From Candidatus Altarchaeota archaeon (GTDB taxonomy: Archaea > SpSt-1190), in the NCBI GenBank assembly GCA_030590165.1, contig JAUUZA010000028.1, forward strand, positions 1 to 8,880: a stretch of 8,880 nt of DNA. The letters run 5' to 3'. Shown in pieces: positions 3,716 to 6,719 of this stretch. The position numbers were made by a program, and so were the translations under genes. The notes below the pieces were generated by a model, which was not told the DNA's origin, made no database searches, and was given only the letters and a program-made list of their open reading frames with translations. Position 1 is the stretch's first letter. The number at the start of each line of letters is the position of its first letter.

Positions 3716-4477
3716 ATGAAGAACTTCTTAGAAGTAGCGTTGACTGCAATAAAACAAGCGGAAGAAATTATTATGGGGGCTTATCCAAATAAAATTGATT
3801 TCACCACTAAAGAAGATAATTCACGCGTCACCCTTCTAGACAAAAAATCCGAACAAACAATGATAAACCACATATCAAGTAATTTTCCAGACCACGGATT
3901 TTTCGGAGAAGAATTTGGAAAAAAGAATGAAGACGCAGAATATGTTTGGGTTATGGATCCAATTGATGGCACTCATAATTTTCTTCGTCACATCCCTTTC
4001 TTTGGAATTGAACTTGCCCTAACAAAAAACAAGGAAGTTATTCTTGGAATTTCAGATATGCCTGCCTTTGGAGAATTAATGTGGGCAACAAAGGGAGGGG
4101 GAACTTATCTCAACAGAAAAAAAGTAGGAGTTTCCAATATTTCAAACATAAATCAATCCTTCTTTGCAACAGGAAAACCCCATATCTTCGAAAAAAAAGG
4201 TCACCTAAATGGACTATTAAACCTTTCAAAAAATTGTTATGACTTTAGATCTGATGTTGGAGAACTTACTGGAGGACACTTCGTAGCACAAGGAAAAATT
4301 GAAATTAATATTAGACCTGAAATTCTCTTTTGGGATATAGCAGCACTAAAAATTATAATTGAAGAAGCCGGAGGAAAAATGACTGACTTTCTTGGAAATC
4401 CCGTAGATGAAAATACAAGAGAAATCATTTCAACAAATGGATTACTTCATAATAAAGTCCTTGAATTTTTCCAATGA
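3716..4477 (+). CDS. Inositol-monophosphatase-family phosphatase
   Basis: A 253-residue member of the Mg-dependent IMPase/FBPase/HisN superfamily, of full length. The metal-binding and catalytic pieces are all present: GEE at 64-66, DPIDGTHNF at 81-89 and WDIAALKIIIEEAGG at 206-220, with Asp207 as the last ligand. In archaea such enzymes dephosphorylate inositol-1-phosphate and often also fructose-1,6-bisphosphate; other members are histidinol-phosphate or PAP phosphatases. The segment around 178-190 (RSDVGELTGGH) is not typical of any one subfamily to my eye, so I do not name a substrate. The ATG at 3716 lies 23.5 bases from a TATA-like box. Its stop overlaps an in-frame ATG of the following dcd frame as ATGA. 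Confidence 0.93.
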   Translation: MKNFLEVALTAIKQAEEIIMGAYPNKIDFTTKEDNSRVTLLDKKSEQTMINHISSNFPDHGFFGEEFGKKNEDAEYVWVMDPIDGTHNFLRHIPFFGIELALTKNKEVILGISDMPAFGELMWATKGGGTYLNRKKVGVSNISNINQSFFATGKPHIFEKKGHLNGLLNLSKNCYDFRSDVGELTGGHFVAQGKIEINIRPEILFWDIAALKIIIEEAGGKMTDFLGNPVDENTREIISTNGLLHNKVLEFFQ

Positions 4478-4480
4478 AAA

Positions 4481-4488
4481 GTTTAAAT
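4481..4488 (+). promoter_or_regulatory. Possible TATA box for dcd
   Basis: GTTTAAAT, centred 25.5 bases before ATG 4510 and just after the phosphatase stop codon. It supports the 4510 start and separate transcription of dcd. Confidence 0.42.
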
Positions 4489-4509
4489 TCTCACACTAAA
4501 ATAATTTAC

Positions 4510-5049
4510 ATGGTGTTAGCTGGAGAAGGACTAAAAAATGAACTCAGGAAATCAATTTCAATTAAACCTTTCCGTAATGGAAATTTATCTGGAGTAAGTT
4601 ATGACATCACCCTTGATGGGGAATTTTTAAAATTAAAGGGCGAGGAAACGCCATTAATTGATCCTATGAATTTCAATGTAGTTGGAGAACGAACAATGGC
4701 AAATGATTTCATACTTCAACCTGGAAGGTTTGTTCTTGGACGAAGTGAGGAATGGTTAGAACTCAATGGAAGCACCATGGCAATGGTGAGTGGGAAGAGT
4801 AGTCTTGCTCGATTAGGGCTTCAAATTGAAAGTGCCGCAATACTCCACCCAGGTCACACCGGCTACATAGTACTCGAAATTGCAAATTTTAACAGCGTCC
4901 CAATTAGATTAATTAAAGGAATGAAAATTGCTCAATTAGTTTTTTTCAAAACAAGTGATGATGTTGAATTATATGCAAAAGCAAGTAGCTCAACTTTCAA
5001 AACTCAAAAAACTATTGAACTCCCAAAAAAAATTTCGCGTAGTGACTAA
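4510..5049 (+). CDS. dcd: dCTP deaminase (Dcd/Dut superfamily)
   Basis: A 179-residue trimeric-type dCTP deaminase, which converts dCTP to dUTP (some archaeal members go on to dUMP) for thymidylate synthesis. Visible family marks are SIKPF and SYDITL near the N-terminus, GKSSLARLG at 95-103 (usually GRSSLAR), HPGHTGYIVLE at 113-123 with the catalytic Glu123, and the KGMKIAQLVF strand. The Glu argues for a deaminase rather than a plain dUTPase. I start it at ATG 4510 because MVLAGEGLKNEL aligns with the family N-terminus MILSDxDI and a TATA-like box is centred 25.5 bases upstream. An in-frame ATG at 4474, overlapping the phosphatase stop as ATGA, would add twelve residues with no family counterpart. 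A bifunctional dUTP-hydrolysing activity cannot be judged by eye. Confidence 0.92.
   Translation: MVLAGEGLKNELRKSISIKPFRNGNLSGVSYDITLDGEFLKLKGEETPLIDPMNFNVVGERTMANDFILQPGRFVLGRSEEWLELNGSTMAMVSGKSSLARLGLQIESAAILHPGHTGYIVLEIANFNSVPIRLIKGMKIAQLVFFKTSDDVELYAKASSSTFKTQKTIELPKKISRSD
5042..5045 (+). promoter_or_regulatory. Short Shine-Dalgarno-like site of the TtuA-like gene
   Basis: GTGA, five bases before ATG 5051 and within the last codons of dcd. The match is short. It supports the 5051 start over upstream in-frame ATGs at 4955-4961. Confidence 0.35.
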
Positions 5050-5050
5050 A

Positions 5051-5575
5051 ATGAAATGTTCATATTGTAAGAATGATTCAATTTACTTTGCTAAATACTT
5101 CGGAAAATACTTTTGTAAAAGACATCTCGAAAATTATCTTTTCAAAAAACTGAAACGAAACCTCCACAAGTACCACTTAATACAAAAGGACGATAAACTT
5201 CTTCTTGAAAATTTAAAGTCCCCAGTTGGAACTGCCTGCATACATCTTTTTACAAAGGCTATAAAAACATGGCCAGTAAAAATTGTTCAAAAAAACGAAA
5301 ATAAAAAAATAAATTTTTCAACAATCGAAGATGAAACAAAGAATATAATTGAAAATTTAACTAATAAAAAAATTTATAAAACTTTTTTTCAAGAGGGAAA
5401 AGTAATCAAACCGTTCAGAAATTTTTCAAGAGAAGAATTATTTATATTGGGTGTTGCACTAGGAAGTCCAGAAAAAGAAAAAATTAAGAAAACAAATCAC
5501 CCGACAGATTCTTTGGGAACTGCAACGAAATTGAATTTGATACATCTTTGGGACCGAATCCTGGCATTGAAATAG
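5051..5575 (+). CDS. TtuA/Ncs6-like zinc-finger protein lacking the PP-loop
   Basis: A 174-residue protein starting MKCSYCK. Cys3, Cys6, Cys22 and His25 form a CxxC...CxxH zinc site followed by a basic helix and KYHLIQKDD, closely like the N-terminus of the tRNA 2-thiolation enzymes TtuA/Ncs6. In those enzymes the ATP-binding SGGKDS motif comes next; here the corresponding place reads ENLKSPVGT and no PP-loop is found anywhere. A later stretch, KVIKPFRNFSREELFILGVAL (about 117-137), resembles the family's C-terminal RIKPLxxxxExExxxYA region. The catalytic Cys pair and the C-terminal zinc ribbon are missing, and the protein is well short of a TtuA of about 300 residues. I infer a non-catalytic relative, perhaps RNA- or partner-binding. 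The ATG is one base after the dcd stop with GTGA just upstream. Its last 30 codons overlap the convergent gene. Confidence 0.72.
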   Translation: MKCSYCKNDSIYFAKYFGKYFCKRHLENYLFKKLKRNLHKYHLIQKDDKLLLENLKSPVGTACIHLFTKAIKTWPVKIVQKNENKKINFSTIEDETKNIIENLTNKKIYKTFFQEGKVIKPFRNFSREELFILGVALGSPEKEKIKKTNHPTDSLGTATKLNLIHLWDRILALK

Positions 5576-6719
5576 CACCAACCGAATAATAAGAATAAAG
5601 TAAGAGTAAAGAAATCAAAGCCAGAAGTAAAAATCCTGCCTTGAGATTTGAACCTTTAAATTTCTTTGAAAAGTAAAGTGCACCTATAAAAATCCCAAAC
5701 AAAATCCACGGTGAAATTTCTGATGCCACATATTCATAAATTAAAACAAAAAACCCTTTCTTAATTTCAGGAGTCATTTCTTCAAAAGGATGCACTCCAT
5801 ATAAAACCCCCCTTGAATCTTTAACTGAAATTTTTTCAACAGGCGCTGTCTCACTATATGTTTTTGTTATTGTTTTAAGTTCCCCAGGGGAAACAGAAAA
5901 ACTTTCTCCAGATAACATACTGATATTTCCCAACGCCGTCCCATTATTATACAGTTTATATGAAACTTCAACATATTTCTGAAGTTCCTTGTTTTCATCA
6001 AGATTCCATTTTACTTTTACATCACGACTAATTGAAAGAGATGGAGAAATAAACACGACAGTCATTTCATTTGTTCTTGATTCATTACCCCACGAAATTT
6101 CAGCTAAAATTTTCAAATAACCCTTACTTTCAGCTTCACCTAAAATAAATAATTCTTCAATTATTTCCCCAGGACTCAATGAAACTAAATGAGAAATAAT
6201 TTGGTCATCAAAATTGAGAACTAATGAAGCTTCATCAATTGATTTTGTACCGGGATTTCTTAATGAAACTAAAACTGAAATATTCTCGCCAGGTAAAAGA
6301 GTAAGGTCACCATCTAAACTCATTTCAATTCTTGGTTTTCCAATAAAATACTGCCTAAAAAAATCAATTGTTTTCATTCCACCTTCATAAAATAATTTAG
6401 GACTACCCATCATCCCATAACCATTCCCCAGAGCAAGAAGGGAATAATCAATAACAATTTGACCTTGCATTTCTTGACCAAAAATACATACAAGTGTATC
6501 TTCAGTTTGTTGACAAGAAGAAGGATAATTTTCTGCTATGAAATGTGTCGGAATTACATCTTCAAGTTTTTCTAAATAAACAGCTTCATCCGAACTGATA
6601 ATTAGAGAAACATCTATATTTTCATTAATATCAATTAATTCAGGTCCTGAAACTGTTTTTGATAAGGATAAGGCCCAAACTTGGGTTAAAAGTAGTAAAA
6701 TAAAAATAAATCTCTTCAC
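5484..6719 (-). CDS. Exported membrane-anchored protein with Ig-like domains
   Basis: A 411-residue protein with an N-terminal signal peptide (about 1-17: Lys-Arg, then a Leu/Ile/Phe core ending VWA). A large extracytoplasmic part follows. It has two Cys (69, 78) that could form a disulfide and, at about 131-225, a beta-sandwich-like domain with PGENISVLVSLRNPG, as in archaeal CARDB/Ig-like surface proteins. A second similar stretch lies at about 233-300. Sequons for N-glycosylation occur at 146, 211, 259 and 265. Two membrane helices lie at about 336-350 and 361-381, joined by a Lys-rich loop (SKKFKGSNLK), so by the positive-inside rule the N-terminus and the last 30 residues are outside. 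I do not recognise the family. An archaeal surface or cell-envelope component is likely. ATG at 6719 has a TATA-like box 25.5 bases upstream. Confidence 0.8.
   Translation of the reverse strand: MKRFIFILLLLTQVWALSLSKTVSGPELIDINENIDVSLIISSDEAVYLEKLEDVIPTHFIAENYPSSCQQTEDTLVCIFGQEMQGQIVIDYSLLALGNGYGMMGSPKLFYEGGMKTIDFFRQYFIGKPRIEMSLDGDLTLLPGENISVLVSLRNPGTKSIDEASLVLNFDDQIISHLVSLSPGEIIEELFILGEAESKGYLKILAEISWGNESRTNEMTVVFISPSLSISRDVKVKWNLDENKELQKYVEVSYKLYNNGTALGNISMLSGESFSVSPGELKTITKTYSETAPVEKISVKDSRGVLYGVHPFEEMTPEIKKGFFVLIYEYVASEISPWILFGIFIGALYFSKKFKGSNLKAGFLLLALISLLLLYSYYSVGAISMPGFGPKDVSNSISLQFPKNLSGDLFS

Follow-up and report, generated by a model that had tools for sequence, protein, structure and literature searches.

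Directly behind dcd, in the 8,880-nt stretch of DNA that we analysed (the window), lies an intact frame for a protein of 174 residues, and the question it raises is what such a protein can do if it derives from a tRNA 2-thiolation enzyme whose usual length is ~300 residues. The initial annotation had reported this frame, correctly as to its length, integrity and place behind dcd, as a TtuA/Ncs6-like protein without the ATP-binding PP-loop, and had taken it for a pseudoenzyme with a possible role in tRNA binding or in the regulation of a genuine TtuA. The features of the gene and its immediate neighbours are given in Table 1.

Table 1. Features of the short gene and its neighbours (window coordinates)
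Feature	Position	Strand	Remark
dcd, dCTP deaminase/dUTPase family	4474..5049	+	stop 1 nt ahead of the start of the short gene
PP-loop-less TtuA/NcsA paralog, 174 aa	5051..5575	+	intact frame
N-terminal zinc finger (C3, C6, C22, H25)	5051..5128	+	four ligands invariant across six genomes
Basic helix and turn KRHLENYLFKKLKRNLHKYHLIQKDD	5117..5194	+	canonical for ordinary NcsA; charge lost in the family's active paralog
ENLKSPVGT replacing the SGGKDS PP-loop	5207..5233	+	from alignment with NcsA
Approximate deletion junction, ~80 NcsA core residues gone including the Fe-S CxxC	5291..5302	+	
C-terminal half corresponding to NcsA 162-275: LDDE helix remnant, IKPF block, C-terminal helix; without C-terminal zinc finger	5300..5572	+	
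Convergent membrane-protein ORF	5484..6719	-	Pfam: only sub-threshold Cohesin/CARDB matches

The TtuA-like character ascribed to the N-terminal CxxC...CxxH zinc site (C3-x2-C6-x15-C22-x2-H25) was borne out by a match to the Pfam model TtuA_LIM_N (E-value 2.1e-5; 24.9 bits, slightly below the 27-bit cut-off), which was matched by all 14 short paralogs of our alignment A8 (E-values up to 1), and by an alignment of residues 1–52 to P. horikoshii TtuA PH0300 (3vrh; phmmer E-value 1.5e-5). Searched against solved structures, a profile of the six-member family identified TtuA 3vrh (3.6e-10 to 3.8e-10) and M. maripaludis NcsA 6scy (2.8e-6), a further collinear segment near the C-terminal end being matched weakly, and a profile-profile comparison aligned the family with ordinary archaeal NcsA over its whole length (99.7%). 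The C-terminal block had likewise been claimed as TtuA/NcsA-like; when residues 80–174 were compared alone with NcsA columns 162–275, hhalign gave 96% and a score of 61, whereas 60 column shuffles of this part reached at most 20, so that both ends of the short protein are homologous to NcsA. The C-terminal half of the NcsA fold (LDDE helix, KPL block and PGxK helix) is present in a homologous, degenerate form.

In the alignment, ENLKSPVGT stands where the SGGKDS PP-loop of catalytic TtuA/NcsA belongs, as had been reported. None of the three [4Fe-4S] cysteines is kept, the CxxC pair falling within the deleted stretch and the third being absent, and the N-terminal zinc finger of TtuA/NcsA is retained while the C-terminal one is missing. 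The initial annotation was thus right that the catalytic cysteine pair is absent, but it understated the loss, as ~80 core residues and the third Fe-S cysteine are also gone. On the evidence of these alignments, the short protein descends from a TtuA/NcsA-type enzyme and has lost the family's binding residues for ATP and for the [4Fe-4S] cluster. Matches to Pfam DUF2023 and DUF7088 were dismissed as chance, being weak, and an AlphaFold model of the short protein built from three sequences was poor (pLDDT 47) and was discarded.

Of the seven genomes in the taxonomic family to which the window belongs (f1), six have the short gene, encoding proteins of 174–205 residues. The search for homologs of similar length that the initial annotation had called for thus yielded five in related genomes (177–205 residues, 25–44% identical to the window's protein), all with the same losses; two of these relatives have been deposited under the name Candidatus Altiarchaeota, as MAGs of isolates DPANNHV_H2.bin.71 and bin.121. 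The sole family genome without the gene is 72% complete, and the gene was not found in the other three genomes of the same class; the genomes surveyed are drafts with gaps and pseudo-copies were detected by profile, so that "absent" here and below means undetected. The paralog is conserved over five genera, with all four zinc ligands among its invariant residues, and it follows dcd in five of the six genomes, with eL18-uL13-uS9 nearby. Its 3' end is overlapped by a convergent frame in all six, by 92 nt on the opposite strand in the window (5484–5575) and by ~30–120 nt in the five relatives. Relatives with a complete PP-loop, which would have implied an assembly deletion, were absent (the PP-loop is missing in 5/5 relatives with the gene), and because the gene recurs in six of seven family genomes, mostly just 3' of dcd, we rejected an assembly error. 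With homology at both ends, loss of the catalytic residues and a conserved order behind dcd, the proposal of a TtuA/NcsA-derived pseudoenzyme held up.

It had also been suggested to look for a true enzyme in the same genome. An NcsA with catalytic residues was identified in five of the six genomes carrying the short gene, complete in four relatives (G001, G004, G005 and G006) and partial in the window genome (G000), where the active copy (L040) ends at a contig edge with the CxxC, the ECPY cysteine and the C-terminal zinc finger visible and the N-terminus outside the contig; in G002 an active NcsA was looked for and not found. In G005 and G006 the active copy lies in a cluster of genes for ThiF (E1), a ThiS-type carrier ending in VRVWSGG, NcsA, SufC, SufB, a third Suf-like protein, SufS and SufU (SufC, SufS and SufU being our own naming within their Pfam families). 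As a sulfur carrier gene immediately precedes NcsA in every genome of the class whose sequence covers the region, we regard the active copy as the positional orthologue, and by this context of carrier and Suf cluster it looks like NcsA. The short gene, adjoining dcd, is located away from it. In G006 the E1-like ThiF, whose gene precedes those for the sulfur carrier and NcsA, forms a single protein of 645 residues with a ThiI (4-thiouridine synthetase) module (L060:7718-9652, minus strand), and the E1 of G005 is without ThiI.

The short and active copies differ in the helix that follows the zinc finger: the short copy retains the canonical basic helix KLKRNLHKYHLI, and the active copy has lost it (e.g., LKETVETELGKFI). 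The net charge of this N-terminal helix averages +4.1 in ordinary NcsA (n = 30) versus -0.4 in the f1 active copies (n = 5; Mann-Whitney p = 0.001, uncorrected for kinship), and it ranges from +2 to +7 in the f1 short copies. The zinc cysteines are kept in four of the five f1 active copies and lost only in that of G004.

We surveyed 394 archaeal genomes, with follow-up searches, for other paralogs of this kind. A separate short paralog, adjoining proS and pelota, was matched in 24 of 26 genomes of a group that we take to be Korarchaeia, presuming that its member G046 is Korarchaeum cryptofilum; two of the matches were weak, one of them (G102) to a 310-residue frame that may be an ordinary NcsA. 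Further PP-loop-less paralogs occur in families f128, f47, f41, f71, f55, f30, f63, f85, f103, f42 and f20. One archaeal group with small genomes has a catalytic NcsA that starts straight at the helix, without the N-terminal zinc finger, and in the phylum of genome G239 a catalytic NcsA without this finger was found in 4/4 genomes with a pseudo-paralog and 0/14 without one (Fisher 3e-4, kinship ignored). In a wider selected set the association is looser, with 12 cases of both a pseudo-paralog and zinc-finger loss, nine of the pseudo-paralog only, four of the loss only and 25 of neither (Fisher p = 0.002), and scoring low helix charge in the same cell order gave 16/5/5/24 (p = 4e-5); as hits led from one genome to the next in assembling this set, the counts serve for description only, and a phylogeny-aware pair test, for which the tree offered only ~5 independent pairs, too few for a verdict, was not significant. 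Three catalytic NcsA proteins without zinc-finger cysteines, L207 (G279), L213 (G394) and L209 (G089), come from genomes in which no pseudo-paralog was detected, and are either counter-examples or cases in which the partner was overlooked.

The relationships of these copies bear on how often they arose. The pseudo-copy of G239 (family f71) clusters with the ordinary NcsA found in f71 itself (SH-aLRT 99; 43% identity), and the zinc-finger-less active copy of the same genome groups with zinc-finger-less copies of other families. The nearest relative of the f41 pseudo-copies is an intact NcsA from a related genome, G391; this genome holds both an intact and a zinc-finger-less NcsA (L223, L203) and is a plausible intermediate toward a pair that includes a pseudoenzyme. 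As the f71 and f41 pseudo-copies are both nearest to local NcsA, at least two of the degenerations look local and independent, and a single origin for all pseudo-copies is disfavoured. The short copy of the window's family has its best matches among ordinary NcsA proteins and not in the active copy that accompanies it in f1.

Based on these comparisons we think it fairly probable that the short protein is the non-catalytic partner in a heteromeric tRNA 2-thiolase, analogous to eukaryotic Ncs6/Ncs2 (Ctu1/Ctu2). The earlier suggestion of tRNA binding or regulation is thereby narrowed to a partner subunit, because the active paralog has complementary losses. NcsA forms homodimers, on whose second monomer Ctu2 is superposed in an AlphaFold model (PMC10067955); the short protein would substitute for one monomer of such a dimer. 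Its N-terminal zinc finger and basic helix would hold the tRNA, and the active subunit, contributing the catalytic core and C-terminal zinc finger, would adenylate the uridine, U34 or U54, and hand on the sulfur; roles have been proposed to be shared out in this way between eukaryotic Ctu2 and Ctu1. The authors of the NcsA study likewise proposed that Ctu2 diverged for orienting tRNA (PMC10067955). We infer the heteromer, and tRNA contact by the short subunit, from homology, the losses and their complementarity, coexistence of the two genes, and gene context. Several observations weigh against this reading: most f1 active copies still have their zinc cysteines, G002 yielded no active copy, the short gene adjoins dcd and not the active copy, and in the wider set pseudo-paralogs and zinc-finger loss do not always go together.

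More tentatively, with chances that we place a little short of even, two-subunit thiolases resembling Ncs6/Ncs2 may have arisen several times in archaea, each from a pair of NcsA proteins with complementary losses, the window gene encoding one such partner. On this proposal a resident NcsA would lose catalysis and take over the holding of tRNA, as partner to another NcsA that has lost its N-terminal zinc finger or its helix charge.

Other roles for the short protein have to be weighed against that of a partner subunit. Its zinc finger and basic helix are its best conserved portion, and its gene is near ribosomal protein, rpoN and dcd genes (the Korarchaeal one near proS and pelota), as would suit a free-standing tRNA- or RNA-binding protein whose link to thiolation has gone and which acts, for instance, in translation or RNA handling. 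However, a free RNA binder needs neither the retained C-terminal NcsA half nor active copies that have changed in step, and as we see both, we consider this explanation unlikely. Still less likely, in our judgment, is a regulator or chaperone of active NcsA, such as an inhibitory subunit or one that docks the sulfur carrier. Pseudoenzyme paralogs commonly regulate their active partner, and the active copy retains its zinc finger in most f1 genomes; yet the basic helix, kept in the short copy and lost in the active one, points toward tRNA contact, and the near-constant presence of the pseudo-copy in f1 and Korarchaeia suits a fixed subunit.

With about one third of the core gone, the gene could also be taken for a decaying copy or an assembly artefact, but intact frames, shared losses, invariant zinc ligands and a conserved position behind dcd across the six genomes make this very improbable. 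We therefore continue to favour a non-catalytic partner subunit, and compare it below with systems that are already known.

With archaeal NcsA/TtuA (6scy, 3vrh/5mko) the short protein shares the N-terminal zinc finger, the basic helix and the C-terminal half, and it differs from them in being without the PP-loop, ~80 core residues, the Fe-S cysteines and the C-terminal zinc finger (174 versus ~300 residues). Like eukaryotic Ncs2/Ctu2 (PMC10067955), it is an NcsA-type paralog that is without the Fe-S cysteines and exists beside a catalytic paralog; unlike Ncs2/Ctu2, which has both terminal zinc sites, it has only the N-terminal one. Membership of the eukaryotic CTU2 family was rejected, since no CTU2 model was among the Pfam matches up to an E-value of 1, and there is no sign of descent shared with Ctu2, as the f71 and f41 copies are nearest to local archaeal NcsA. 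The short protein nevertheless probably works like Ncs2/Ctu2, though outside that sequence family. The proposed arrangement also resembles ADAT2/ADAT3 and Trm61/Trm6 (PMC6382703), in which homo-oligomeric tRNA enzymes became pairs of a catalytic and a non-catalytic paralog; unlike the family described here, these are unrelated eukaryotic enzymes that catalyze other reactions.

Archaea have been described as relying on one NcsA, the Ctu1/Ctu2 pair being regarded as a eukaryotic divergence (PMC10067955), and our literature search, of incomplete coverage, returned no report of an archaeal Ctu2-like protein. If our proposal is true, the eukaryotic Ncs6/Ncs2 heterodimer is not unique. A recombinant Ctu1/Ctu2 complex could not be made (PMC10067955); compact archaeal pairs would let the role of the dead subunit be tested directly, and would constitute repeated natural experiments in which a homodimeric tRNA enzyme is divided into catalytic and tRNA-holding parts.

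Some of the genomes hold further genes of note. Additional NcsA/TtuA-like paralogs with a complete PP-loop (L042, L043 and L044) occur in some f1 genomes, and the window itself encodes a leucine-rich-repeat protein at 2–658 that runs off the start of the contig. In genome G191, a paralog (L224) has SGGKKS as its PP-loop and is missing the Fe-S CxxC, and perhaps represents an early loss of catalysis.
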